Source: an uncultured Litoreibacter sp. (lineage in GTDB: Bacteria; Pseudomonadota; Alphaproteobacteria; Rhodobacterales; Rhodobacteraceae). From it: a stretch of 64,000 nt of DNA. The notes below the pieces were generated by a model. It was not told the origin of the DNA and searched no databases. It worked only from the letters and a program-made list of their open reading frames with translations. Of this stretch, positions 23,686 to 55,157 are shown piece by piece (the first letter of the stretch is position 1; the number at the start of each line of letters is the position of its first letter). The position numbers and the translations under genes are program-made. The stretch is taken from assembly GCA_947494435.1 (NCBI GenBank), contig CANLUY010000001.1, forward strand, positions 982,001-1,046,000, in the 5' to 3' direction.

Positions 23686-23849
23686 TCCCCCGCGCGCGGG
23701 GATTTCGCTAAACTGTTGATAGAAAACAGTCTTTCAATTTTTCTTCACGGGTTGCTAACCATCTAAATAATTGGATTGTTACCATTTATAATTTGCGGAC
23801 TTGACTCCTCTATGTAAATATACATGCGCAAGTATATAGGTGATTCGAG

Positions 23850-24044
23850 ATGACCGAAACCTCACGAGAAGAATTCGTTTCTCAATTAACATCCGAGCGC
23901 GAAACTTACGCAAACAATTGTTATCCTACAAAAATGTATGCAAATTCAACGGCGATAAGCGATCAACTTTTGACCGGTTATGGCAACTTCACACCAATAA
24001 CCGTTAGATCGAGTTCAATATCAATAGATGCCGACTTGGAATGA
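23850..24044 (+). CDS. small hypothetical protein upstream of the serine protease
   Basis: A 64-residue ORF, polar and rich in serine and threonine, with no family I recognise and no signal peptide or membrane segment. It is supported mainly by context: AGGTGA lies six bases before ATG 23850, and its stop overlaps the start of the protease gene by 17 bases, in the manner of a coupled leader ORF. The protease gene has no good ribosome site of its own. The region is visibly richer in A+T than the flanking genes. Confidence 0.45.
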   Translation: MTETSREEFVSQLTSERETYANNCYPTKMYANSTAISDQLLTGYGNFTPITVRSSSISIDADLE

Positions 24045-26168: not shown

Positions 26169-26445
26169 CATCGGTTGCGTTGGAGCTGGGGTAAGATCGG
26201 CTGTTAATTCCGTTGAGGAATAGTGATTTGTTGAGCAGAAATCCTTGCTGTTGCCCATAGCCGTTAAGACTGGAGAGTTGACCAGTTGAAAATAAAAGAA
26301 ATAATTACTTCATGATATCAATTGCTTAGATAGTAATTTCTGTCAGGTACGTCACTGATTTTGAGAAAGGCGGGAACTATTGAGCCGAACGCGGTGTTGG
26401 ATAGCCAATGATGCACTCGCATCGCTGAAATAAAGGAAATTAGAT
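26169..26445. other. intergenic region, no gene seen
   Basis: A relatively A+T-rich 277-base gap between the MFS gene and a secreted-protein gene. It holds an inverted repeat AATTACT (26303-26309) / AGTAATT (26332-26338) with a 22-base loop, and an AAAGGAA ribosome site near 26432. A promoter for the downstream gene must lie here, but I cannot pick convincing boxes. No tRNA-like fold was noticed. Confidence 0.5.
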
Positions 26446-30486: not shown

Positions 30487-30500
30487 GAGATCAGCGCTTT
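30481..30500. terminator. weak convergent hairpin between smr and dnaQ
   Basis: CGCTGA (30481-30486, containing the smr stop) pairs with TCAGCG (30491-30496) around a GAGA loop, followed by CTTT. It is short, so terminator strength is doubtful. Confidence 0.35.
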
Positions 30501-31230
30501 AGGCTGTTGAAAAGTTCTTCCAAAGCGGTGCGTCGCCAAGTTGGCTTTGAAATTCCAAATGCGCCTCTCGTTCGGCATCGGTAAGCTTTGAGGCCAAAGG
30601 TGTTGGACGGGGCTGGGGTCGCCAAGCATCGCCCGATGCCTCGTTCTGTCCACCGGAGGAGGCCAGCGCAAAGTCTGGTTGGCGACCGCCAATCAGTTCT
30701 AGGTAGACTTCGGCAAGAATTTCACTGTCAAGCAACGCGCCGTGTTTGTCGCGTGCGGAATTGTCGATACCAAAGCGACGGCACAACGCATCAAGAGATG
30801 CGGGTGATCCGGGGAAGTTCTTGCGCGCAATTGCAAGCGTGTCGAGCGCTTGGTCATTGGGTAAAAGCGGTTTGTTGCACCAGCCCAGCTCTGCGTTGAG
30901 GAATTTCATATCGAAGGCGGCGTTGTGAATGACCAGCTTTGCGTCACCCACAAAATCAAGGAAGGCTTGCGCAATATCTTCGAAGACCGGTTTGTCTTTC
31001 AGGATCACTTGCCCGGGTTGCGCAGGTTGAGGCGGAACCAACAGATCGGGGCCGATACCATGCACACCGAAGGCTTCCGCAGGCATATCCCGTCTGGGAT
31101 TGATGTATTGGTGATACACGCGGCCCGTGGGCATATGGCCGTTCAGTTCAACCGCGCCGATTTCGACGATGCGATCCCCCTCAGATGGCTCAAAGCCAGT
31201 GGTTTCCGTATCGAGGACGATTTCACGCAT
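30499..31230 (-). CDS. dnaQ: DNA polymerase III epsilon subunit (proofreading exonuclease)
   Basis: A 243-residue DEDD-family 3'-5' exonuclease, the proofreading subunit of DNA polymerase III. Exo I is LDTETTGFEPSEGDRIVEIGAVE, Exo II HNAAFDMKFLNAELG, Exo III HGALLDSEILAEVYLEL. Length fits DnaQ with the C-terminal tail that binds the alpha subunit. It overlaps coaE by 8 bases and is the last gene of the minus-strand maf-aroE-coaE-dnaQ run leading away from the proposed origin. Confidence 0.95.
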   Translation of the reverse strand: MREIVLDTETTGFEPSEGDRIVEIGAVELNGHMPTGRVYHQYINPRRDMPAEAFGVHGIGPDLLVPPQPAQPGQVILKDKPVFEDIAQAFLDFVGDAKLVIHNAAFDMKFLNAELGWCNKPLLPNDQALDTLAIARKNFPGSPASLDALCRRFGIDNSARDKHGALLDSEILAEVYLELIGGRQPDFALASSGGQNEASGDAWRPQPRPTPLASKLTDAEREAHLEFQSQLGDAPLWKNFSTA

Positions 31231-31822
31231 GTTTGGCCCTTAAATGTTCGATCAAATCTTGCACTTGGGTTCGTGCGCTTTCAAGGGTTTCGGTGTTGAT
31301 GACCGTGTCCGCCTGCGCGCGCTTTTCGGCGTCAGGTGTTTGTTTGCGCATGATCATATTGAAGGTGGGTTCATCCATCGTGCCCCGCGCCAAGACGCGT
31401 TCGCGCTGGTTCTCAAGCGTCGTTGACACGACTACGACGTGGTCCACCTTTTTATGCGCGCCAGTCTCAAACAGAAGGGGCACATCAAACACGATCATTT
31501 CGGCATCTTGGTGAGCGGCCGCGAAGTCACGGCGATCCTGTTTGACCAGTGGGTGCACGATGCTTTCGATTTTAAGCAGAAGGTCTGGCGATGATGCGAT
31601 AGCCGCTTTCAATGCTTCTTTGCTGACAGTGCCGGTCTTGGTGGCCTCTGGCACGAGATCACCCAAAGGGCCGACGGCGGCGCCGTTTTTGGCGTAAAGG
31701 CGTGAGACGGCTGCATCTGCATCCCAGACGGGAAACCCAAACTCCGCAAACATTTTGGCTGTCGTGGATTTCCCCATGCCGATAGAGCCTGTCAGGCCAA
31801 TAAGAATGGGGGTGTTGGTCAT
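31223..31822 (-). CDS. coaE: dephospho-CoA kinase
   Basis: A 199-residue P-loop kinase for the last step of coenzyme A synthesis. Walker A is GLTGSIGMGKST at the N-terminus, followed by FPVWDADAAVSRLY and the conserved FDVPLLFETG. ATG 31822 overlaps the aroE stop by 4 bases (ATGA on the minus strand) and its end overlaps dnaQ by 8 bases, so the operon is translationally coupled. Confidence 0.95.
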   Translation of the reverse strand: MTNTPILIGLTGSIGMGKSTTAKMFAEFGFPVWDADAAVSRLYAKNGAAVGPLGDLVPEATKTGTVSKEALKAAIASSPDLLLKIESIVHPLVKQDRRDFAAAHQDAEMIVFDVPLLFETGAHKKVDHVVVVSTTLENQRERVLARGTMDEPTFNMIMRKQTPDAEKRAQADTVINTETLESARTQVQDLIEHLRAKHA

Positions 31823-32652
31823 CTCAGCATCACTTGTCGTAAGTCTTCATCCACTTCCGGTGTATGTCCGAACCAACGTTCAAACCCCGGAACAGCTTGG
31901 TGCAATAACATGCCCAGCCCGTCAACCACGCGGCAGCCTTTGGCGTGGGCAGTGGCGAGTAGATTGGTGGTCAGCGGCGTGTAGACGATATCAGTGACGA
32001 GCGTTTGGCTTTGTAGATGATCGAGAGAGAGTTTCAGCTCTTCCTTTCCCTCCATCCCAAGGGAGGTTGTGTTGATCAGGGTGGCCACGTCTTCGAGATA
32101 AGGTGCGGCTTGTGACCAGTCGATGACCTCGACCTTTGCACCGAAATGGGCTTTGAGCGCATCGGCGCGCGCACGGGTGCGGTTTGCGAGGTATATTTTC
32201 GGGACACGCTCGTGAAGAAGGGCCGCGACAATCGCCCGAGCCGCGCCCCCTGCCCCCAGTACAAGAGCAGGCCCGCTGGACGGATCCCAGTCTGGTGCGT
32301 TTTGCTTGAGGTTTGAGATGAAGCCGATCCCATCGGTGTTATCGGCATGCAGTTTGCCGTCGGATTGGAAGGTCATCGTATTGGCCGCGCCGATCAGCGC
32401 AGCGCGATCAGAAATGACATCAGCAATGTCCAACATCGCTTCTTTATGCGGGATCGTGACGTTTACGCCTTTGAACCCGGCTTTGGGAAGGATGTTCAAG
32501 ACATGGGCCAGGTCATTACTGGCGACGTCCATCGGGATATAATGCCCGGGAATGCCGTAGCGTTTCAGCCAATGCCCGTGCAGTCGCGGGGATTTGGAAT
32601 GCGCAATCGGGTGACCAATAACACCAGCGAGGGGGATCGTTGCAATGCTCAT
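31819..32652 (-). CDS. aroE: shikimate dehydrogenase (NADP+)
   Basis: A 277-residue AroE, which reduces 3-dehydroshikimate in aromatic amino acid synthesis. The substrate site [35 protein letters not shown] with the catalytic lysine, and the NADP loop [15 protein letters not shown] followed by ANRTRARAD are all present. I start at ATG 32652 ([10 protein letters not shown]), overlapping the maf stop by 4 bases, instead of at 32805, which would add 51 residues from inside maf. Confidence 0.95.
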
Positions 32653-33248
32653 GCGGGGATCGCGCCTTTCAATGAGAGATAGTTCAGCACATCTAGTAGC
32701 GGGATTCCGAGCACAGTGAAATAATCTCCTGTCACCTGAGCAAAGAGCCGCGCGCCTTCGGCCTCTAATTGATAGCCGCCAACACAGTATTTGATGTCTT
32801 CCCAATTCCGCTCGACATAGTCATCAAGGTAGTCGTCCGAGAAGTTGCGCATGATCAGCTTTGCTTCTTTGACGGAGCGCCAGACGGGTTTGCCATCTTC
32901 AAAGATCACTGCCGCAGAGAACAAAGAGTGGGTTGATCCGCGGAGTTCGGATAGTTGGGTTTTCGCCTGTGTTTTGTCTTTGGGCTTTTCGAGTAAGACA
33001 CCTTTGTGGTCGAGCACTTGGTCGCATCCGATGACAAATGCGTTTGGATTCTTGACCGCGACTTTGAGCGCCTTAAATTCTGCCAGGGCATCGGCAATAT
33101 CCCAAGGTTTTGCCCGTTCTGCCAGAAGGCTTGCGGTGATGGTTTCCTCATCCACACGTGCAGTCTGAACGTCGAAAGACACGCCTGCATTTTGCAGCAA
33201 TTGCCGGCGGATGTCGGAGCCAGAGGCAAGGATAATCGGCTTGGTCAT
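32649..33248 (-). CDS. maf: Maf-family nucleoside triphosphate pyrophosphatase
   Basis: A 199-residue Maf protein, a house-cleaning pyrophosphatase acting on non-standard or methylated nucleotides. [25 protein letters not shown] is the family opening, then [21 protein letters not shown] and [34 protein letters not shown] 33248 is chosen; ATG 33254 two codons upstream is possible. It is the first gene of the minus-strand operon and forms the left border of the proposed replication origin. Confidence 0.93.
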
Positions 33249-33631
33249 GTGCATAACTCTGAGGGTAAGGCGGGTTGAACGCTCTGGATGAAACCAAAGA
33301 TATCCACCTAGATATCTGCTTGACGTCGCATTGCCCACACTGTCCGAAAACTAGTCACGGAGTCGCACCTTGTGAGCAATTGAAAATCATCCCTGTGTGC
33401 GACTCATCCTTCATAATTTTTTCACACAGGTTACCCACAAGTTAATGCGCATATTAACGCGTTCATATTAATGAAAATAAATTAATCTCTGGATTGTTTC
33501 GCGCCGTTTTCTTCACATCAGGTCTAGCTGGGGATGATCATTTGATCCCCACAATTCACAGGCCCTACATATAACATCATCTTTTCTTTCTCTTTATTAT
33601 AGATAAGAGGGATAACTGAGAGTGAGGGACA
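33249..33631. other. putative chromosomal replication origin (oriC)
   Basis: A 383-base gene-free region between divergent maf and hemJ. It carries DnaA-box-like 9-mers: TTTTTCACA (33418-33426, full fit to TTWTNCACA), TTACCCACA (33431-33439, one mismatch to TTATCCACA), TTCTTCACA (33509-33517, one mismatch) and weaker ones at 33300, 33331, 33371 (reverse) and 33552. An A+T-rich block at 33440-33490 contains two ATTAAT and the inverted repeat TTCAT-N4-ATGAA (33462-33475). A second A+T-rich stretch lies at 33570-33606. The synteny (rho, mnmE, mnmG, parAB on one side; maf, aroE, coaE, dnaQ on the other) matches the origin region known from Caulobacter. The hemJ promoter must also lie here. Confidence 0.65.
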
Positions 33632-34081
33632 ATGAGCGATTTCCTGTATTCATTTTATCCTTGGGTAAAGGCTTTGCATATCATGGCCGTGATCTCATGG
33701 ATGGCTGGACTGTTCTACCTCCCTCGACTGTTCGTCCATCATACTGAGAAAGTTAAGACGGGTAGCGAGACTGACAAGCTATTTCAGATGATGGAACGCA
33801 AACTTCTGCGGGTTATTATGAACCCTGCAATGATCGTGGCTTGGGCGGCGGGGCTTTATATGATCGCGCTTGGGGCGTTTGATTGGTCGGCTGTCTGGTC
33901 TTGGGCCAAGATCGTCGCAGTCCTCGCAATGACTTGGTTTCACCATTGGCTTGGGAAACGGCGCAAGGATTTTGTCGCTGGTGAGAACACGCTGACCGGC
34001 AAGCAGCACCGGATGATGAATGAAGTTCCGACTGTGTTGATGGTTATCATCGTCATATCTGTGGTCGTGCGACCGTTCTGA
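33632..34081 (+). CDS. hemJ: protoporphyrinogen oxidase HemJ
   Basis: A 149-residue four-segment membrane protein of the HemJ family, which oxidises protoporphyrinogen IX in haem synthesis in many Alphaproteobacteria. FYPWVKALHIMAVISWMAGLFYLPRLFVHH carries the conserved histidine and the WMAGLFYLPRLFVYH-type motif; KLLRVIMNPAM and WHHWLGKRRKDF-like sequence (FHHWLGKRRKDF) follow. ATG 33632 has GAGGGA upstream. It borders the proposed origin and precedes rho. Confidence 0.93.
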   Translation: MSDFLYSFYPWVKALHIMAVISWMAGLFYLPRLFVHHTEKVKTGSETDKLFQMMERKLLRVIMNPAMIVAWAAGLYMIALGAFDWSAVWSWAKIVAVLAMTWFHHWLGKRRKDFVAGENTLTGKQHRMMNEVPTVLMVIIVISVVVRPF

Positions 34082-34224: not shown

Positions 34225-35532
34225 ATGCCAGAAGACAATGTCACTGAAGAAATGATTGGTGAAAGCACAGAAAGCCTCAATCTTTCTGATCTGAAAAAAC
34301 AAAAGCCAGCTGATCTGGTGACGATGGCCGAAGAGCTTGAGATCGAGAATGCGTCGACGATGCGCAAGGGCGATATCATGTTCTCCATCCTGAAAGAACG
34401 GGCTGATGATGGCTGGGAAATTTCCGGCGATGGCGTGCTTGAAGTCCTGCAAGACGGATTTGGCTTTCTGCGATCCCCTGAAGCGAACTACCTGCCCGGC
34501 CCGGACGATATTTACGTCTCCCCCGATATGATCCGTCAGCATTCGCTGCGTACGGGTGACACGGTGAACGGCGTGATGGATGCCCCCAAAGAGGGGCAGA
34601 ACTATTTTGCGATCAATAAGGTGACCACAATCAACTTTGAGGAGCCTGAGAAGGCCCGTCACAAGGTTAGCTTTGATAATTTGACGCCACTCTATCCTGA
34701 TGAGCGAATGACGATGGAGATCGACGATCCAACGGTGAAAGACCGTTCCGCCCGGATCATTGATCTGGTTGCCCCGATCGGGAAAGGTCAGCGGTCTTTG
34801 ATTGTGGCACCGCCACGGACTGGTAAGACGGTTCTTCTACAAAACATCGCGTCTTCGATCGAGAAGAACCACCCCGAATGCTACCTGATCGTGCTTCTGA
34901 TCGACGAACGTCCTGAGGAAGTCACCGACATGCAGCGCTCTGTGAAGGGTGAGGTTGTCTCCTCCACCTTTGATGAGCCTGCGACCCGCCACGTCGGTGT
35001 GTCCGAGATGGTGATTGAGAAAGCGAAACGTCTGGTCGAGCATAAGCGTGACGTTGTGATCCTGCTCGATTCGATCACGCGTCTTGGCCGTGCGTTCAAC
35101 ACTGTGGTGCCCTCCTCCGGTAAAGTTCTGACTGGTGGTGTGGATGCGAATGCGCTGCAACGTCCGAAACGTTTCTTTGGCGCCGCGCGGAATATTGAGG
35201 AAGGTGGTTCGCTGACCATTATCGCGACAGCCCTGATTGATACTGGCTCCCGCATGGACGAGGTCATCTTTGAGGAATTCAAAGGCACCGGTAACTCTGA
35301 GATTGTGCTGGATCGTAAAGTGGCTGACAAACGCGTCTTCCCGGCGATGGATATTCTCAAATCCGGTACACGGAAAGAAGACCTTCTGGTCGACAAGAAT
35401 GATCTGCAGAAAACCTTCGTTCTGCGTCGTATCCTGAACCCGATGGGCACCACGGATGCGATCGAGTTCCTGATCGGAAAACTGAAGCAGACCAAGACCA
35501 ATCAAGAGTTCTTCGATTCGATGAACGCATAG
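34225..35532 (+). CDS. rho: transcription termination factor Rho
   Basis: A 435-residue Rho, the hexameric RNA translocase that ends transcription. An N-terminal helix bundle ([36 protein letters not shown]) is followed by the RNA-binding cold-shock-like domain ([33 protein letters not shown]) and the ATPase core with Walker [13 protein letters not shown]. It has the usual length. About 45 bases downstream, with an extended hairpin, mnmE begins. Confidence 0.97.
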
Positions 35533-35576: not shown

Positions 35577-36860
35577 ATGGATACGATTTACTCCCTTGCA
35601 TCCGCCCGTGGTAAGGCGGGTGTTGCTGTGGTCCGTGTTTCCGGACCCTTATCGTCGAGTGTCTTGCAGCAATTGAGCGGTCGTGGCCCCACTGGACGCG
35701 CCCCTTCTCTGCGGCGCTTGGTTGATGGTGACGGTGTTCTGATCGACGAAGCGCTGGTGCTGTTCTTCGTGGCGGGCCACAGCTTTACGGGCGAAGACGT
35801 GTGTGAGTTTCAGACGCATGGCAGCCCCGCTGTTGTATCCGCGTTGCTTGATACGCTTGGTCGTATTGATGGTTTGCGGTTATCTGATCCCGGCGAATTT
35901 ACCCGTCGTGCGTTGGAGAATGGACGGCTTGATCTTGCGCAGGTGGAAGGCCTCGCCGATTTGATCGAGGCTGAGACGGAAGCCCAACGCAAGCAGGCCA
36001 TTCGTGTGTTTGATGGTGCATTGGGTGCGAAGGCTGATGAATGGCGCATAGATTTGATCCGCGCGGCTGCTTTGCTTGAGGCGACTATTGATTTCGCTGA
36101 TGAGGATGTTCCGGTGGATGTGACACCGGAAGTGATTTCCCTTGTTACATCTGTGAGACATGATTTGTTAGGTGAGCGTCGTGGGGCCTCTGCAGCTGAG
36201 CGTATTCGAGATGGGTTTGAGGTCGCGATTCTTGGCGCGCCGAATATTGGGAAGTCGACGTTGCTGAATGCGCTGGCGGGTCGTGATGCGGCAATCACAT
36301 CTTCGGTGGCCGGAACAACTCGTGATATTATTGAAGTGCGGATGGATTTGTCCGGGCTTCCGGTGACGTTTTTGGACACCGCTGGCTTGCGCGAGACTGA
36401 GGACGAAGTCGAAGCAATTGGAATTCAGCGCGCTTTAGATCGCTCTGCCCGCGCAGATTTACGTGTAATCCTCGTTGATTCTGCTGGCCCTCCGGCGTCG
36501 GTTACCATTGGGCCGGACGATATTGTTTTGTCGGCAAAGGCAGATTTATCTGGGGGTGACGGCATCTCTGGATTGACTGGGCAGGGTGTGGAACAGCTTG
36601 TGTCAGACGTGACGAAACGCCTTGAAACACTGGCCTCTGGGGCGTCGTTGGCGATCCGGGCGCGGCATCTTGAAGCTTTGGATGCCGGTATAAGTTCTTT
36701 GCAAACCGCCTTGGATGAATTAGATCGCGGTATGGAGTGGGCCGAGATTGCAGCGGAAGAATTACGCACTGCAATCCGAGCACTGGAATCCTTGGTTGGC
36801 CGCGTCGATGTCGAGAACCTTCTTGATGAGATTTTCGCGAGTTTTTGCCTGGGTAAGTAG
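35577..36860 (+). CDS. mnmE: tRNA modification GTPase MnmE
   Basis: A 427-residue MnmE (TrmE), which with MnmG modifies U34 of certain tRNAs. The N-terminal folate-binding domain ([24 protein letters not shown]) is followed by a helical domain holding an inserted G domain with [17 protein letters not shown] and [13 protein letters not shown]. The C-terminal tetrad CLGK contains the conserved cysteine. It precedes its partner mnmG by 15 bases. Translation may be affected by the hairpin at its start. Confidence 0.96.
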
Positions 36861-36875
36861 CTTGAGTAGTTGGGA

Positions 36876-38750
36876 GTGTTTCACGTGAAACATCCGGATT
36901 TCGATGTGATTGTGATCGGTGGTGGTCATGCAGGTACTGAAGCGGCCGCCGCTTCGGCTCGTACAGGTGCGCGCACTGCGCTGGTGACGCATAAGGCTGA
37001 GACTATTGGCGTTATGTCGTGCAACCCTGCCATTGGTGGTCTTGGGAAAGGCCATCTTGTGCGGGAGATTGATGCGCTTGATGGATTGATGGGGGTTGCT
37101 GCGGATGCTGCGGGCATCCAGTTTCGTCTTCTCAACCGTAGCAAAGGTCCTGCTGTGCAAGGTCCGCGCGCGCAAGCGGATAGGGCCTTGTATCGTGCGG
37201 CTATTCAAAAATTGGTAGCGGCGCAGGAGAACCTAAGCGTTGTTGAGGCTGAAGTCGCGGATTTGGTGATGGATCAAGATGCCGTGGGCGGTGTTGTTCT
37301 CGCGGATGGCAGTGAAATAAGGGCGAAGGCTGTCGTTTTGACGACTGGAACCTTCCTGCGTGGTGTTATTCATATCGGTGACGTCTCGCGGCCCGGTGGT
37401 CGGATTGGGGATGATCCGTCTGTCACGCTCGCTGAGCGGATCGACAGTTTCGGCCTGCAGCTAGGGCGTTTGAAAACTGGAACGCCACCGCGTTTGGACA
37501 GTCGCTCAATCCATTGGGACGGGTTGGAGATGCAGGCGGGTGATGATGACCCCACTTTATTCTCATTCATGTCCACAAGGCCGGCTGCACGGCAGATATC
37601 CTGCGGAATCACGCATACCAATGCGGAAACACACGATATTATTCGCGAGAACCTAGAGCGTTCAGCCATGTATGGCGGGCATATTGATGGTATCGGGCCT
37701 CGCTATTGCCCTTCAATTGAAGATAAAGTCGTGCGGTTTGCCGAAAAGGACTTTCATCAAGTGTTCCTTGAGCCTGAGGGGTTGGACGATCCGACGGTTT
37801 ACCCGAACGGTATTTCAACCTCATTACCGGTAGAGGTTCAGGAGGCATATGTCAGGTCAATTGCGGGTCTTGAGGACGTCAAGATCGTTCAACCTGGCTA
37901 TGCGATAGAGTATGACTACGTGGATCCGCGGTCTTTGCGGTATAGTTTGGAATTGAAAGATGTGCCGGGCTTGTACCTGGCGGGGCAGATTAACGGCACC
38001 ACGGGCTACGAAGAGGCCGGGGCGCAGGGCTTATTGGCGGGTTTGAACGCCGCGCGATCCGCCAGAGAGCAGGACCCACATGTTTTTAAGCGCTCCGACT
38101 CGTATATTGGCGTTATGATTGACGACTTGATCAATCGCGGTGTGGCGGAGCCGTATCGGATGTTTACGTCTCGTGCCGAGTTTCGACTTTCGCTCAGGGC
38201 GGACAATGCTGATCAAAGGTTAACTGCGATTGGCGTTGAAGCCGGTCTTGTTGGCTCAAGACGTGCGGATGCCTTCAATGAAAAGATGGAGTCTTTGGGT
38301 TTGGTGCGTCAAACGCTTGAAGCGATCAACATTACGCCACAACAAGCAAATACAGTTGGGATACGTATCAAAAGTGATGGGCGTCGTCGTACGGGGGTCG
38401 ATCTCTTGTCATTTCCAGACGTCACGTTCGAGACGCTTTCAGCGATTTGGCCTGAGCTTTCGGAGTTTGATGTCAAGATAGGGCGTCAGATTGAGCGGGA
38501 CGCACTATATATGAACTATATTGAGCGTCAGGAGCGGGATGCGGAGTTGTTGAAAAAGGATGAGAACGTGCTCATCCCAACAGATTTCGATTTCCATTCG
38601 ATTGAGAGCTTATCAAGTGAGTTGAAGTCAAAGCTTTCGCAGCAGCGGCCTGAAACGCTTGCTCAGGCGGCCAAGGTGGATGGGATCACTCCGGCAGCAC
38701 TGACGCTTATTCTCGCGAATCTTCAGAAGAAGCGGAAGAAACCGGCTTGA
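36876..38750 (+). CDS. mnmG: tRNA uridine-5-carboxymethylaminomethyl modification enzyme MnmG
   Basis: A 624-residue FAD enzyme (GidA), partner of MnmE. After the FAD loop [14 protein letters not shown] (residues 11-24) come [24 protein letters not shown] and the C-terminal helical domain. I start at GTG 36876 so that the protein begins [11 protein letters not shown], the familiar alphaproteobacterial start; the in-frame TTG at 36870 would add two residues. The second to sixth codons are formed by a parS site (36877-36892), so chromosome-partition DNA is part of the coding sequence. rsmG overlaps its stop by one base. Confidence 0.95.
36877..36892. other. parS centromere-like site (copy 1)
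   Basis: A perfect palindrome TGTTTCACGTGAAACA, identical to the conserved bacterial parS consensus bound by ParB. It lies within the first codons of mnmG, about 3.3 kb right of the proposed origin and 3.3 kb left of parB. Confidence 0.95.
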
Positions 38751-39382
38751 TGGGACCTGATGAAGCCGTATCAGCGATATCGGGATTTGCCGATGTTTCA
38801 CGTGAAACATCCGACAGGCTTAAAGAGTTCGCCGTACTTTTGCAGAAGTGGAACAAGAAAATTAATCTTGTGTCCCCATCAACAATTGATGACCTGTGGG
38901 AGCGTCATATCTTCGATTCTGCGCAACTTCTTCCTTTGATTTCCGAGGATGCGGCAAGACTGACGGATATCGGCACAGGAGGCGGGTTTCCTGGATTGAT
39001 CCTCGCGCTCCTTACGGCGGAAAAACAACCCGGTCTGACTGTTACAATGATTGAATCAGATGTCCGCAAATGTGCATTCCTGCAAACCGCTTCTTCCCAG
39101 TTGGGCTTGAAAACGCGGGTTATTTCAAGGCGGATTGAGTTCGCCCCTCCTCAAAATGCTGATATCGTGACATCACGTGCGCTTGCCCCGCTTGGCGCAT
39201 TGCTTGGATATGCAGAAATGCATCTCTCACCAGCTGGAACGGCTATTTTGATGAAAGGCGCGAATGCTGACGCTGAGATCAATGAAGCTCTTGCGTCATG
39301 GGCATTCGACCTGCAAAAGATAGCAAGCAAGACGCATCCTGATGCCGTCATTCTAAAAATTACCAATCTGAGGCGCGGCTAA
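38750..39382 (+). CDS. rsmG: 16S rRNA (guanine527-N7)-methyltransferase RsmG
   Basis: A 210-residue SAM-dependent methyltransferase (GidB) that modifies G527 of 16S rRNA; loss of it gives low-level streptomycin resistance in several species. LLQKWNKKINLVSPSTIDDLWERHIFDSAQLLPL and the SAM loop LTDIGTGGGFPGLILALL are diagnostic. ATG 38750 overlaps the mnmG stop (TGATG). Codons for DVSRETS are built from the second parS site. Confidence 0.95.
   Translation: MGPDEAVSAISGFADVSRETSDRLKEFAVLLQKWNKKINLVSPSTIDDLWERHIFDSAQLLPLISEDAARLTDIGTGGGFPGLILALLTAEKQPGLTVTMIESDVRKCAFLQTASSQLGLKTRVISRRIEFAPPQNADIVTSRALAPLGALLGYAEMHLSPAGTAILMKGANADAEINEALASWAFDLQKIASKTHPDAVILKITNLRRG
38794..38809. other. parS centromere-like site (copy 2)
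   Basis: A second perfect TGTTTCACGTGAAACA, inside rsmG near residue 16-20 (VSRET), 1.9 kb from the first copy and 1.4 kb before parB. Confidence 0.95.
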
Positions 39383-39386
39383 TTCC

Positions 39387-40172
39387 ATGATCCAACAACC
39401 CCGCATTTTGTCTGTTGCGAACCAAAAAGGTGGTGTTGGAAAGACAACAACAACGATCAATCTTGGTGCTGCATTGGCGGCCACAGGGATGAAGGTGTTG
39501 ATTATTGATCTTGATCCTCAAGGAAATGCGTCGACCGGCTTGGGTGTGGATCAAAAAGATCGCAAGACATCGACTTATGATTTGATCTTGAATGATGTTC
39601 CGCTTGAAAAAGTCGCGATCCCCGTCAATGTCCCAAACCTTTGGATCACTCCGGCGACAACGGACCTTAGTTCTGCCGATCTTGAACTGGTGTCGACGGC
39701 CAGACGGGTCTTTCTGTTGAAGGACGCACTGCGCAACAATAGTGTTAATGAGCTTGGCTACCACTACATATTGATAGATTGCCCACCTTCGTTGAACCTT
39801 TTGACGTTGAACGCAATGGTGGCGTCGGATGCTGTTCTGGTCCCACTGCAAGCAGAGTTTTTCGCCTTGGAGGGGTTGTCGCAGCTGATGTTGTCCGTGC
39901 GCGAGATACGGGAGACAGCAAATCCGAACCTTCGACTGGAGGGCATTGTCCTGACGATGTTTGATCGCAGAAATAACCTGTGTCACCAAGTCGAAGAAGA
40001 TGCGCGTGAAAACCTGCGCGATCTTGTTTTCAAGACAATGATCCCCCGCAATGTGCGCTTGAGTGAAGCGCCATCTTACGGGATGCCAGTCATTAACTAC
40101 GATCCAACGTCAAGAGGTGCCGTAGCCTATAAGGCGCTCGCCCGTGAAATCGTGGATCGGCGGAACAGCTAG
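39387..40172 (+). CDS. parA: chromosome partitioning ATPase ParA
   Basis: A 261-residue ParA/Soj ATPase that moves ParB-parS complexes during chromosome segregation. The deviant Walker A is NQKGGVGKTTTT with signature lysine K14 and K19; LDPQGNASTGLG and the Walker B DCPPSLNLLTLNA follow. It is a short chromosomal type without an N-terminal HTH. It begins 4 bases after rsmG and precedes parB by 13 bases. Confidence 0.96.
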   Translation: MIQQPRILSVANQKGGVGKTTTTINLGAALAATGMKVLIIDLDPQGNASTGLGVDQKDRKTSTYDLILNDVPLEKVAIPVNVPNLWITPATTDLSSADLELVSTARRVFLLKDALRNNSVNELGYHYILIDCPPSLNLLTLNAMVASDAVLVPLQAEFFALEGLSQLMLSVREIRETANPNLRLEGIVLTMFDRRNNLCHQVEEDARENLRDLVFKTMIPRNVRLSEAPSYGMPVINYDPTSRGAVAYKALAREIVDRRNS

Positions 40173-40185
40173 AAAGGAACCAGAC

Positions 40186-41088
40186 GTGGCAGATAAGAAA
40201 GAAAAGCGCGGTCTCGGCCGGGGTTTGTCGGCCTTGATGGCTGATGTAGATGTTCGCCAAGCAGATGCGTCGATGACAGCCCAATCTGGCGGTGGTGAGC
40301 AAAAGCTACCGATCGAGAAAGTTTTTCCGAATCCCGATCAGCCTCGTCGTGACTTTGACGAAGACGCGTTGCGAGAGCTGTCTGAATCGATCGCAGAGAA
40401 GGGCGTTATCCAGCCTTTGATCGTCCGTGATGCGCCCGCTGGCGACGGGAGCTATCAGATTGTAGCGGGTGAGCGTCGTTGGCGTGCGGCGCAAATGGCC
40501 CGTCTGCATGAGGTTCCGGCGATCATTCGGGAATTTACAGATACGGAAGTTCTTGAAGTCGCGATCATCGAAAACATTCAGCGCGAAGATCTGAACGCGG
40601 TTGAAGAAGCGCTTGGCTATCGTCAATTGCAAGAGACCTACGGGCATACGCAGGAGCAATTGTCATCTGCGTTGGGGAAAAGCCGCAGTCACATTGCCAA
40701 TCTGATGCGGTTGCTCAATCTGCCGGAAGATGTGTTGACGTGGCTGCGTCAGGATAAGCTGTCTGCCGGTCACGCGAGGGCTTTGATTACGGCGGATGAT
40801 CCAACAGGATTGGCGCGTATTGTTATTGCGAAGGGTTTGTCTGTTCGTGAAACGGAGAAACTTGCAAAAAGCGGCTCTAAACCAGCGCAAAGCAGTAAAT
40901 CCACTGGTTCTGGCGATGCCGACAAGGACGCAGACACGCGAGCGTTAGAGCGGGACTTGAGCGCAGCGATTGGCATGAAGGTGAGCATTGATCATGGGGC
41001 TGGTGGGGAAAAGGGCAAGATGACAATCAGCTATGAAGACTTCGAGCAGCTCGACGATTTGTGCCGCCGTCTTTCGCAGGTTTCTTAA
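40186..41088 (+). CDS. parB: chromosome partitioning protein ParB
   Basis: A 300-residue ParB/Spo0J CTPase that binds parS. RGLGRGLSALMADV is the ParA-interacting start, followed by the CTP-binding ParB/Srx domain (PNPDQPRRDF, then GERRWRAAQMARL and IIENIQREDLNAVEEA), the helix-turn-helix (TQEQLSSALGKSRSHIANLMRLLNLP) and a C-terminal dimerisation segment. Start is GTG 40186 with AAAGGA upstream; the earlier in-frame ATG lies inside parA. Its end overlaps convergent hemW by 4 bases. Confidence 0.95.
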   Translation: MADKKEKRGLGRGLSALMADVDVRQADASMTAQSGGGEQKLPIEKVFPNPDQPRRDFDEDALRELSESIAEKGVIQPLIVRDAPAGDGSYQIVAGERRWRAAQMARLHEVPAIIREFTDTEVLEVAIIENIQREDLNAVEEALGYRQLQETYGHTQEQLSSALGKSRSHIANLMRLLNLPEDVLTWLRQDKLSAGHARALITADDPTGLARIVIAKGLSVRETEKLAKSGSKPAQSSKSTGSGDADKDADTRALERDLSAAIGMKVSIDHGAGGEKGKMTISYEDFEQLDDLCRRLSQVS

Positions 41089-48048: not shown

Positions 48049-50307
48049 ATGTCAAAGAACAACCGCGTCACCGATGAAGAAGCGCTGAGCTACCATTTAG
48101 AGCCTTCGCCGGGGAAGATTGAGATTAACGCATCGACGCCAATGGCGACGCAGCGTGATCTGTCGCTGGCCTATTCGCCGGGCGTTGCTGTGCCAGTCGA
48201 AGCCATCGCTGAGAACCCGGGCACAGCGTATGATTATACGACAAAGGGCAATATGGTCGCGGTGATCTCAAACGGGACAGCAATCCTGGGGCTTGGAAAC
48301 TTGGGCGCATTGGCCTCAAAGCCGGTGATGGAAGGCAAGTCGGTTCTGTTCAAGCGCTTCGCCGATGTGAATTCCATAGACTTGGAATTGGATACGGAAG
48401 ACGCGGACGAGTTCATCAATGCCGTCCGGCTTATGGGCCCATCCTTTGGTGGCATTAACCTTGAAGACATTAAAGCGCCAGAATGTTTCATCATCGAACA
48501 GCGCTTGCGCGAAGAAATGGACATTCCAGTTTTCCATGACGACCAGCACGGGACGGCTGTGATTTGTGCGGCTGGTTTGCTGAATGCGCTGCATCTGACG
48601 GGCAAGAAAATTGAAGATGTGAAGATCGTTTTGAACGGTGCTGGTGCGGCTGGAATTGCTTGTGTCGAACTGATCAAGGCGATGGGTGCGAAACACAACA
48701 ATTGCATCGCTTGTGACACGAAGGGCGTCATTTATCAGGGCCGGACTGAAGGAATGAACCAGTGGAAGTCCGCGCATGCCGCGAAGACGGATGACCGGAC
48801 CCTGGAAGACGCGATGCGCGGTGCTGATGTGTTTCTAGGGGTCTCCGCCAAAGGGGCTGTTACGCAAGACATGGTTAAGAGCATGGCCGACAATCCGGTG
48901 ATCTTTGCTATGGCAAACCCCGACCCAGAGATCACACCAGAGGATGCGCATGAGGTGCGGCCAGATGCGATTGTAGCGACGGGCCGCTCTGACTATCCAA
49001 ACCAGATCAATAACGTCCTGTGTTTCCCGTATCTTTTCCGCGGCGCCTTGGATATTCGCGCTCGCACGATCAATGACGCGATGAAGATTGCGTGTGCTGA
49101 GGCGCTCGCAGAACTGGCGCGGGAGGACGTGCCAGACGAAGTTGCGATGGCGTACGGGCGCAAATTGGCCTTTGGTAGAGACTATATTATCCCTACACCG
49201 TTTGATCCGCGTTTGATTTACAAGATTCCGCCTGCTGTTGCGAAAGCCGGAATTGATACCGCGGTCTCCCGTAAGCCGATTGTCGACTTTGACCGGTATG
49301 AAGCGGACCTCCGCGCGCGCATGGATCCAACTGCGACGATGCTGCAGGGGTTGCACAATCGTGCCCGTAAAACGCAAGCGCGGATGATTTTTGCGGAGGG
49401 GGATGATCCTCGTGTGCTCCGCGCGGCGGTGAACTACCAACGATCCGGGTTCGGGGAGGCGCTGGTTGTCGGACGCGAGGACGATGTGCGTCAGAAGTTG
49501 GAAGAAGCGGGGATGGCAGATGCCTATCGTGAGTTAACCATCGTTAACGCGCGGAATTCCGTTCATTTGGATGACTACAAGGCGTTTTTGTACGAGCGTT
49601 TGCAGCGCAAAGGCTATGATCATCAGGATGTGCATCGACTGGCGGCGCGGGACCGGCATGTTTTCTCAGCCCTCATGTTGGCAAATGGGCACGGCGACGG
49701 TTTGGTGACCGGGGCGACCCGAAAATCTGCGCATGTTTTGGGTCTATTAAACCATGTTTTGCCTGTTTCTGAAGAAGATGGCGCCGTCGGCGTCACTGCG
49801 CTTTTGCACAAAGGGCGCATTGTTTTGATCTCTGATACGCTGGTGCATGAATGGCCGGATGAGCAGGACCTAGCGCATATTGCGGTGCGTGCGGCGGGTA
49901 CCGCGCGATCCCTCGGGCTTGATCCGCGTGTCGCCTTCGTCAGTTTTTCGACCTTCGGCTATCCAATGAGCGAACGGGCGGAAAAGATGGGTGTTGCGCC
50001 CGCTGTGTTAGAAAAAATGGGCGTAGATTTTGAGTTTGATGGAGAGATGAATGTCGATGTGGCTCTAAACCCCGATGTTCAGGCGAATTACCCGTTCTGT
50101 AAGCTGACCGGGCCCGCCAATATTCTGGTTGTCCCTGCGCGCCACTCTGCTTCGATCTCTGTCAAGCTGATGCAAGAGATGGGCGGTGCCACAGTGATCG
50201 GGCCGATTTTGAGCGGATTGGAGCAGCCCATTCAGCTGTGTTCGACCACAGCCACTGCAAATGACATTCTGAACATGGCGGTGATGTCGGCCTGTCGGGT
50301 TGGCTAA
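48049..50307 (+). CDS. maeB: NADP-dependent malic enzyme with phosphotransacetylase-like domain
   Basis: A 752-residue two-domain malic enzyme converting malate to pyruvate and CO2 with NADP. The malic enzyme half (to about residue 430) has YSPGVAVPV, GNLGALASKPVMEGK, FHDDQHGTAV and the dinucleotide loop LNGAGAAGIACVEL. The C-terminal 320 residues resemble phosphotransacetylase but in this family act mainly in regulation by acetyl-CoA rather than catalysis. Length matches MaeB. It stands alone, divergent from mutS, convergent to dnaJ, with a shared terminator between. Confidence 0.95.
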   Translation: MSKNNRVTDEEALSYHLEPSPGKIEINASTPMATQRDLSLAYSPGVAVPVEAIAENPGTAYDYTTKGNMVAVISNGTAILGLGNLGALASKPVMEGKSVLFKRFADVNSIDLELDTEDADEFINAVRLMGPSFGGINLEDIKAPECFIIEQRLREEMDIPVFHDDQHGTAVICAAGLLNALHLTGKKIEDVKIVLNGAGAAGIACVELIKAMGAKHNNCIACDTKGVIYQGRTEGMNQWKSAHAAKTDDRTLEDAMRGADVFLGVSAKGAVTQDMVKSMADNPVIFAMANPDPEITPEDAHEVRPDAIVATGRSDYPNQINNVLCFPYLFRGALDIRARTINDAMKIACAEALAELAREDVPDEVAMAYGRKLAFGRDYIIPTPFDPRLIYKIPPAVAKAGIDTAVSRKPIVDFDRYEADLRARMDPTATMLQGLHNRARKTQARMIFAEGDDPRVLRAAVNYQRSGFGEALVVGREDDVRQKLEEAGMADAYRELTIVNARNSVHLDDYKAFLYERLQRKGYDHQDVHRLAARDRHVFSALMLANGHGDGLVTGATRKSAHVLGLLNHVLPVSEEDGAVGVTALLHKGRIVLISDTLVHEWPDEQDLAHIAVRAAGTARSLGLDPRVAFVSFSTFGYPMSERAEKMGVAPAVLEKMGVDFEFDGEMNVDVALNPDVQANYPFCKLTGPANILVVPARHSASISVKLMQEMGGATVIGPILSGLEQPIQLCSTTATANDILNMAVMSACRVG

Positions 50308-53725: not shown

Positions 53726-54339
53726 ATGAAGCCAAATCTATCCATCCGCGGATTCCAGATTTACGAGAAATTTCTGGATGACGACGCACAACGCGCCCTT
53801 ACTGCAGAATTGCGCGCGCTGATCGTGACTACGCCAATGGTTCAGCCGGTTTTGGCGGGCGGTCGACGCATGTCCGTGCGCATGACGTCGCTGGGCAAAC
53901 TGGGCTGGGTCGCGGATGCAGCGGGCTACAAATACCAGAGTCATCATCCGAACGGGCAACCATGGCCTGCGATTCCACCTTCCGTTCTGAATATTTGAAA
54001 ACCGTCTCAGGCGTCGGGCGCCCGCCGGATTGTTGTTTGGTGAATTACTACGCTGAAGATGCAAAGATGGGGATGCATCAGGATAAGGATGAAGGCCAGT
54101 TTGACTGGCCTGTTGTCTCCCTCTCTCTGGGGGATGACGCGCTGTTTCGGATGGGTCAGCCCACGCGTGGGGGCAAAACCGAAAGCATCTGGCTGCGCTC
54201 CGGTGATGTCGTCGTAATGGGCGGCGCTGCACGTCTCGCCTATCATGGAGTTGACCGGATTAAGTTCGGCACATCGACCTTGTTGCCCAAAGGGGGACGC
54301 CTCAACCTGACCCTTCGCGTGGTGGAACCCGCGTCTTAG
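53726..54339 (+). pseudogene. alkB: alkB, DNA repair dioxygenase, disrupted by a frameshift
   Basis: Two partial frames together give one AlkB-type 2-oxoglutarate/Fe(II) dioxygenase, which reverses alkylation damage in DNA. Frame one (from ATG 53726) runs through YKYQSHHPNGQPWPAIPPSVLNI and stops at 53998. The next frame carries on at about 53999 with KTVSGVGRPPDCCLVNYY, then MGMHQDKDEG with the iron-binding H-x-D, and LTLRVVEP. One G missing in ATTTG(G)AAAACC near 53997 would restore VLNIWKTVSG. All catalytic residues visible lie after the break, so the product is not functional unless this is a sequencing error. Its end overlaps the convergent permease gene by 4 bases. Confidence 0.85.
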
Positions 54340-55157
54340 CGTCCAGCACTCCAACTCAGCGACGCATTCTTGCGGGTATGGAATTCGCCCATCAAGCCGA
54401 TCATAATCAACACGACCCCGACTGTGATCGGATAGCTGATTGAACTGAAATGCGGGTTGTAGTTGATGAACGCGAAACCCCGCGCCTGATCAATGCTGTG
54501 AAATAGCGGGTTCCAGTCGAAGAACGCGAGGATATAGCCGGGCATTGTGTTTGCGACGAACATCTTGCCTGACGCAATCATATTCGCGCGGCTGTAAACC
54601 ATCGACAATGTGCTGGCCAAACCGGGCAGCCACGGCTTCATGGCGAGAAAGACCATACCAACGGCAACACCAGTGAACCATGCCAGAAGGAACATCCCAA
54701 TCGTCGGCATGGGTTTGTAGATCACGACTGGATGCCAGACGACATGGACGAAAAACAGGATCAGGGACGCGGACAGAACTTGAATGTAAAGCGATGATAA
54801 AGCGGCTGATGCAATCGCAATCGCCGTATTCATCGGCGCATGTTTCATCATTGCCGAGGTCGGACCTTCAGAACCAAACACAGCGCCCATCGCTTTGGTG
54901 TGAGTCAGGAACAAGAAAATGCCCGATAGCAGATACAGGATGAAATCACCGCGGATCGCATTGCCCCGCAATCCGAGCACAGAGAACATCAAGTAGAACG
55001 CGGCCACAAACACGACGGTTTGTAACACATTCGTCGCCAAACCGATAAAGGCGTTACGATGCGACTTCCGGACACTACGCACAGTTGAGAAATAGATCAG
55101 CTCCGCCAGCCCGATGGCCGAGCGAAAGTGCGAGGTGCGTTCTTCAGTTCTGAACAT
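54336..55157 (-). CDS. ABC-2 type polysaccharide export permease (KpsM-like)
   Basis: A 273-residue integral membrane protein of the ABC-2 permease type used in capsule or O-antigen export. It has six hydrophobic segments; the N-terminus (RKSHRNAFIGLATNVLQTVVFVAAFYLMF) and the stretch FLFLTHTKAMGAVFGSEGP are close to KpsM/RfbA-type permeases. No ATPase (KpsT-like) gene lies beside it in this window. It is divergent from cysQ over 120 bases and next to a region of kdsB and glycosyltransferases, which suggests surface polysaccharide export. Confidence 0.8.
   Translation of the reverse strand: MFRTEERTSHFRSAIGLAELIYFSTVRSVRKSHRNAFIGLATNVLQTVVFVAAFYLMFSVLGLRGNAIRGDFILYLLSGIFLFLTHTKAMGAVFGSEGPTSAMMKHAPMNTAIAIASAALSSLYIQVLSASLILFFVHVVWHPVVIYKPMPTIGMFLLAWFTGVAVGMVFLAMKPWLPGLASTLSMVYSRANMIASGKMFVANTMPGYILAFFDWNPLFHSIDQARGFAFINYNPHFSSISYPITVGVVLIMIGLMGEFHTRKNASLSWSAGR

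Follow-up and report, generated by a model that had tools for sequence, protein, structure and literature searches.

The analysed DNA, hereafter the window, is a stretch of 64,000 nucleotides (C1:982001-1046000, C1 being the host contig) from the 3.89-Mb, 12-contig genome (G000) of an uncultured Litoreibacter, a genus placed by NCBI in the Roseobacteraceae, Rhodobacterales. Two gene clusters, maf-aroE-coaE-dnaQ on the minus strand and hemJ-rho-mnmE-mnmG-rsmG-parA-parB on the plus strand, diverge from a 383-bp gap at 33249-33631 (C1:1,015.249-1,015.631 kb; Table 1), and the products of the two genes flanking it were confirmed as Maf and HemJ. The true start of aroE probably lies further inside its frame, since the family match begins only at residue 54. 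Two exact copies of parS (TGTTTCACGTGAAACA) were found in the entire genome, at C1:1018877 and C1:1020794, i.e. 3-5 kb from the gap; no further parS within one mismatch was found genome-wide, the next best site having two mismatches. No gene-free stretch in the window is longer than the gap, though it is not the only long one as the first-pass annotation had stated, because 23686-24027 (342 bp, 39% GC), flanked by an AAA-domain gene and a ClpP-like serine protease gene, is also devoid of ORFs of at least 100 aa. No Rfam family matched within the gap at gathering scores, so an RNA element was dropped as its explanation. Elsewhere in the window, Rfam identified a Cis2_sRNA (RF02645, Ruegeria cis2 sRNA) at 54439-54594 (+) with 73.3 bits versus a cut-off of 50, antisense to an ORF at 54336-55157 (-) that has a weak ABC-2 transporter match just below cut-off; and malic enzyme domains are fused with a phosphate acetyl/butyryl transferase domain in one gene at 48049-50307 (+).

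Table 1. Genes and sequence features at the maf-hemJ locus (positions in the window)
Feature	Position	Strand	Remark
dnaQ	30499-31230	-	
coaE	31223-31822	-	
aroE	31819-32805	-	
maf	32649-33248	-	Maf family nucleotide pyrophosphatase
Whole maf-hemJ intergenic region, predicted oriC	33249-33631		skew switch, conservation, box clustering, parS 3-5 kb off
Exact DnaA box TTATGCACA	33248-33256	-	overlaps maf start; GTGGATAA there in many relatives
Degenerate DnaA box ATATCCACC (2 mismatches)	33300-33308	+	TTATCCACC there in many same-genus genomes
Degenerate DnaA box TTGCCCACA (2 mismatches)	33331-33339	+	ACCCACA there in many same-genus genomes
DnaA box TTTTTCACA (exact TTWTNCACA)	33418-33426	+	TTTAYCCACAG-like in several relatives
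DnaA box TTACCCACA (1 mismatch)	33431-33439	+	
A+T-rich block holding IHF-like site	33440-33490		block of the first-pass annotation
IHF-like site WATCAANNNNTTR (1 mismatch)	33455-33467	-	inside family-wide motif peak
DnaA box TTCTTCACA (1 mismatch)	33509-33517	+	TTCACA or CTCACA there in L042, L044 and L048
Degenerate DnaA box TCATCCCCA (2 mismatches)	33529-33537	-	GTGGATAA-like there in some relatives
Match to model R1	33530-33612 (C1:1015530-1015612)	+	E 3.7e-12
First tandem DnaA box TGATCCCCA (2 mismatches to TTWTNCACA)	33543-33551	+	WATCCACA-like in many relatives
Second, abutting DnaA box CAATTCACA (2 mismatches to TTWTNCACA, 3 to TTATCCACA)	33552-33560	+	YTATCCACA in several relatives
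GC spacer GGCC, 4 bp	33561-33564	+	
Triplet-repeat tract CTACATATAACATCATC, DnaA-trio-like	33565-33581	+	family period-3 test, conservation
T-rich then A+T-rich tract, putative unwinding region	33582-33607	+	
hemJ	33632-34081	+	
rho	34225-35532	+	
mnmE	35577-36860	+	
mnmG	36870-38750	+	
Exact parS TGTTTCACGTGAAACA	36877-36892		within mnmG frame, near mnmG start
rsmG	38747-39382	+	
Exact parS TGTTTCACGTGAAACA	38794-38809		within rsmG frame, near rsmG start
parA-type ATPase	39387-40172	+	
parB	40144-41088	+	

The divergent arrangement of maf and hemJ around a gap was observed in 20 of 21 same-genus genomes (the host's own included; gap 374-412 bp) and at 79 of 80 named loci (374-452 bp), with rho present at all 80. 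Both missing cases are contig ends that stop before maf, one in the genus (L033) and one among the named loci (L097). Since the named loci are the 80 top-ranking ones among 316 that match the window's HemJ, this sample is tilted to near relatives. Together these yielded 99 gaps, reduced to 90 distinct ones by duplicate removal; eight of the 20 same-genus gaps were identical to gaps in Litoreibacter records. The first-pass annotation, which had proposed a chromosomal replication origin (oriC) here, would have given up that proposal had the gap not been conserved among close relatives, and such conservation was found in the genus and among the named loci alike.

Searching the gap for DnaA boxes retrieved all three strongest sites annotated before, namely the exact TTWTNCACA box at 33418 and the one-mismatch boxes at 33431 and 33509, and added an exact box over the maf start (33248-33256, minus strand) that had been missed. 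The 'four weaker' boxes of that annotation mean little alone, as 15 further sites have two mismatches, the total of sites with at most two mismatches being 20 versus 8.5 expected. At up to one mismatch, the interval 33245-33635 contains five TTWTNCACA matches, two of which (33418 and 33420) overlap each other, versus 0.95 expected, and none of 500 dinucleotide shuffles reached five; the richest 391-bp blocks of the window, four with five matches each, all overlap the left part of this interval. The boxes hence form a cluster beyond chance. Over the whole 64 kb, neither exact TTWTNCACA (7 versus 3.98 expected) nor TTATCCACA with up to one mismatch (9 versus 8.7) was clearly enriched. Across the 90 distinct gaps, TTATCCACA with up to one mismatch occurred 198 times versus 11.9 in shuffled sequences, and such boxes peaked in the first, fifth, seventh and eighth tenths of the gap. 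The box signal is one of local clustering and conservation, not of window-wide enrichment.

Whether the chromosome changes replication strand at this locus was assessed by the gene-strand-corrected skew of four-fold-degenerate sites, sampled densely over most of C1:355-1465 kb (~1.1 Mb), in place of a sparse sample (20 stretches plus the window) that had been too noisy. The cumulative skew reached its minimum at 1,003,073 and the change point was located at 1,005,000, with bootstrap ranges of 980-1025 kb (68%) and 895-1090 kb (95%), within which the gap at 1,015.2-1,015.6 kb falls; the plain GC-skew minimum was at 978 kb. The skew was mostly negative up to ~980 kb and mostly positive past ~998 kb. 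Values of the wrong sign occurred on either side, chiefly at C1:775-870 kb and in several single stretches, and the skew was noisy, the 95% range being 195 kb wide. Two relatives with large contigs spanning both hemJ and dnaA were sampled at 20 stretches each: in G005 (hemJ at 607 kb, dnaA at 335 kb and so 272 kb off) the best split fell between the samples taken at 585 and 612 kb, and in G019 (hemJ at 2722 kb, dnaA at 3221 kb and so 499 kb off) between those taken at 2695 and 2727 kb, the G019 samples at 2600 and 2770 kb having the wrong sign. The skew switch predicted by the first-pass annotation was accordingly observed in the host at the gap or close to it, and in both relatives between samples flanking hemJ, at a resolution of tens of kb.

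These skew data bear directly on an origin near dnaA, as in many bacteria, which in the host would be at C1:582 kb. The strand bias of the polar 9-mer GGGCAGGGA speaks for such a location: it switches nearer dnaA than hemJ in three genomes, at 576-595 kb in the host, at 2136-2236 kb in G007, where dnaA is at 2192 kb, and at 55-267 kb in G005 (dnaA at 335 kb, hemJ at 607 kb). Very few GGGCAGGGA sites, however, lie where these switches fall, and the four-fold-site skew between dnaA and hemJ remains mostly negative in G005 and the host and has already turned positive in G019, with the best split at hemJ in all three. Owing to the few sites, the dense host skew and the two relatives, the GGGCAGGGA switch was set aside, and an origin beside dnaA is regarded as having next to no likelihood. 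A dnaA-side origin read from GGGCAGGG was also rejected: among the matches listed, its apparent strand switch was 450-740 kb off and the reverse ones ended at 277 kb, though the GGGCAGGGA data show reverse sites beyond. Of the 21 same-genus genomes, 12 have dnaA (G000:C1:581973 in the host) and hemJ on one contig; the two genes are 125-499 kb apart there, with dnaA on either side of hemJ and on either strand, as if origin-spanning inversions were frequent.

The hemJ end is the most conserved part of the gap, and a sequence model of it (R1) was built from 37 named loci not titled Litoreibacter. In the host genome, R1 gave a single match at E ≤ 10, the one in the gap. It matched 247 of 296 family genomes, nearly all once, and left 49 without a match, a count to be read with the reservation that some of the 37 training loci may come from the genomes searched. 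In a class-wide draw, 99 of 289 genomes were matched at E ≤ 0.01, five of this family among the matches listed, and many of the weak class-wide matches are probably chance hits in A+T-rich genomes. Neighbour genes were assigned at 25 out-of-family loci, with PF03618 (Kinase-PPPase) counted as COG1806, since we take it to be the COG1806/DUF299 family. The element adjoins hemE at 17 of them, rho at one and COG1806 at one, and none of these genes was found among the ORFs tested at the other six (L184, L188, L193, L197, L198 and L199). The far side was typed at 11 of the hemE loci and is COG1806 in seven, maf in two, CoaE in one and a gene of no family in one. Judged by sequence and gene neighbours, the element recurs at the origin position of the Caulobacter/Rickettsia type, which lies between hemE and COG1806 according to the available text of PMC1914354.

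This distribution also weighs on the reading of the gap as nothing but a double promoter of maf and hemJ, with DnaA as a transcription regulator and the origin elsewhere. Divergent genes, a nearly constant gap length and a most conserved element that adjoins hemJ are what a promoter could produce, but three genomes show their skew switch at hemJ or close to it, and exact parS is limited to the neighbourhood of the gap. The main counter-argument is that outside the family the same element stands beside hemE (17 of 25 loci), or beside rho or COG1806 (2 of 25), without tracking hemJ, and so is not merely a hemJ promoter; we thus hold the promoter reading to be very improbable. With the skew switch, the conserved gap, the clustered boxes, the adjoining maf and the nearby parAB and parS all pointing the same way, the gap is, with high confidence for a sequence-based prediction, the oriC of the main chromosome of this Litoreibacter-like bacterium (Rhodobacterales), in agreement with the origin proposed by the first-pass annotation.

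Within this predicted oriC, the hemJ end is arranged as two abutting DnaA boxes (33543-33560) followed by the short GC spacer GGCC, a triplet-repeat tract and a T-rich then A+T-rich tract. Both boxes are degenerate in the window, and the right-hand boxes are nearer the consensus in many relatives. ATCCAC occurs in 75 right ends, where the spacing between its last copy and CTA peaked at 5 and at 14-15, about one box apart, and ATCATC was present in 66 of 90 right ends versus 5.65 expected. Beside the box the sequence repeats with a period of three: lag-3 identity was 0.510 versus 0.323 shuffled in the family gaps that offered an anchor (84 out of 90), and 0.538 versus 0.334 shuffled at 18 of 18 loci outside the family, which were picked after their neighbour genes were known, with L190 omitted. 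Beyond the first triplet, CAT/ATC predominate within the family and CAA/CTA elsewhere. The published trio rule (three or more NAN triplets no further than 16 bp from a box) was satisfied by 36 of 90 gaps versus 31.0 in controls, and by 18 of 20 same-genus gaps, when up to two box mismatches were allowed, and by 70 of 90 versus 52.2 in controls at up to three, the window passing only at three. As the rule performed little above controls, the tract is termed DnaA-trio-like and not DnaA-trio.

The first-pass annotation had instead drawn attention to a central A+T-rich block at 33440-33490. Its composition was borne out, 50-mers starting at 33436-33451 reaching 74-76% A+T; the window's highest value for a 50-mer, 80%, is reached elsewhere, at 26286-26335 in a short gene-free stretch (26169-26439). 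The block carries an IHF-like site with one mismatch and a second one-mismatch match at 33483-33495, by the consensus as printed in the available text of PMC5742627; no exact IHF consensus was found in the window's gap. Across the 90 gaps, the sixth tenth contained 78 matches with up to one mismatch versus 5.3 expected per tenth; 64 of the 90 gaps have the motif there, as do 14 of the 20 from the genus. Unwinding might then begin in this central block of the oriC, with the right end a secondary DnaA site or a leader: the central 50-mers equal the right tract (76%) in A+T, and the boxes at 33418 and 33431 directly adjoin the block. Against this, the block is poorly conserved in sequence except for the IHF-like motif, whereas the tandem boxes, GC spacer, period-3 repeats and T-rich tract of the right end are shared by most family members and by hemE-side loci. 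We therefore consider a central start of unwinding unlikely; what the block mainly carries is a conserved IHF-like motif, and unwinding appears more likely to start at 33565-33607 than at 33440-33490.

An oriC directly beside maf has been described as conserved in Rhodobacteraceae, citing DoriC, in the available text on Ketogulonicigenium vulgare Hbe602 (PMC4793288), and that of PMC6699656 places oriC in 101 Rhodobacteraceae strains via DnaA boxes, the GC-disparity minimum and nearness of parAB. With a maf-side oriC published for Rhodobacteraceae in the older sense, the gap would be an ordinary origin for its family; compared with the origins predicted in those texts, the maf neighbour is the same; the box, IHF and triplet anatomy and the species do not appear in those texts. 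The origins of Caulobacter crescentus (Cori) and Rickettsia prowazekii lie beside a haem gene and contain DnaA boxes and one IHF site, as given in the available text of PMC1914354. The gap resembles them in being intergenic, with a haem gene beside it and DnaA boxes, and has one-mismatch IHF-like matches as candidates for the IHF site, and the analogy with Caulobacter made in the first-pass annotation proves apt, since the same right-end element adjoins hemE in other families. It differs from Cori in its flanks, which are hemJ and maf here and hemE and COG1806 in Caulobacter, and in CtrA sites, of which Cori has five by the same source, while none of the 20 same-genus gaps contains an exact TTAA-N7-TTAA; on these two grounds, the gap is not a Caulobacter-type Cori. 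Across the 90 gaps, eight exact TTAA-N7-TTAA sites were found, seven of them in the maf-end tenth. Such maf-end sites, at 21-25 bp from the maf start, occur in L108, L111, L114, L119, L120, L128 and L133 and in none of the window's genus. CtrA input to the origin may vary within the family.

The right end also resembles the Bacillus subtilis basal unwinding system (BUS), as far as the available texts of PMC8287927 and PMC6669920 describe it, in its tandem boxes, ~4 bp of GC, period-3 repeats and A+T-rich DNA, and its repeats often start with CTA, i.e. 3'-GAT-5' on the other strand, as in B. subtilis. Unlike in the B. subtilis BUS, the later triplets are CAT/ATC (family) or CAA/CTA (outside), and the NAN-triplet rule is satisfied only slightly above controls. 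With Escherichia coli oriC, as presented in the available text of PMC5742627, the gap shares DnaA boxes, a candidate IHF site and a T-rich strand at the putative unwinding region, and differs from it in having triplet repeats after the tandem boxes and before the T-rich tract, and in being flanked by maf and hemJ.

Putting these parts in order, DnaA would bind the left boxes (33248, 33418 and 33431) and the right tandem pair (33543-33560), while IHF would bend the middle of the gap at 33455-33467. A DnaA filament could then extend from the tandem pair past the GC spacer to cover the triplets and the T-rich tract, with first melting expected at about 33565-33607; the helicase would load at the melted tract, two forks would depart, and ParB on parS would then separate the new origins. 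More broadly, we tentatively propose, at somewhat less than even likelihood, that alphaproteobacterial origins share an unwinding module fixed at one edge, consisting of tandem boxes, ~4 bp of GC, C-first triplets and a T/A-rich tract, with the haem neighbour varying between hemE and hemJ; its triplets (CTA, then CAT in the family and CAA elsewhere) would be a DnaA-trio variant that retains 3'-GAT-5' chiefly in the repeat closest to the box. The open-access passages searched contained no account of the triplet element, and the new part is possibly the module common to maf/hemJ-side and hemE-side loci together with its triplet variants.

By this prediction the replication origin of the host genome is narrowed to a 383-bp gap, and the marine Rhodobacterales gain a concrete map of origin parts that covers the boxes, an IHF-like site and the probable place of melting. 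Should the triplets function as a DnaA-trio variant, they would link the Caulobacter-type and Rhodobacter-type origins, and the variant would, if true, test how loose the sequence rule for DnaA single-strand binding is.
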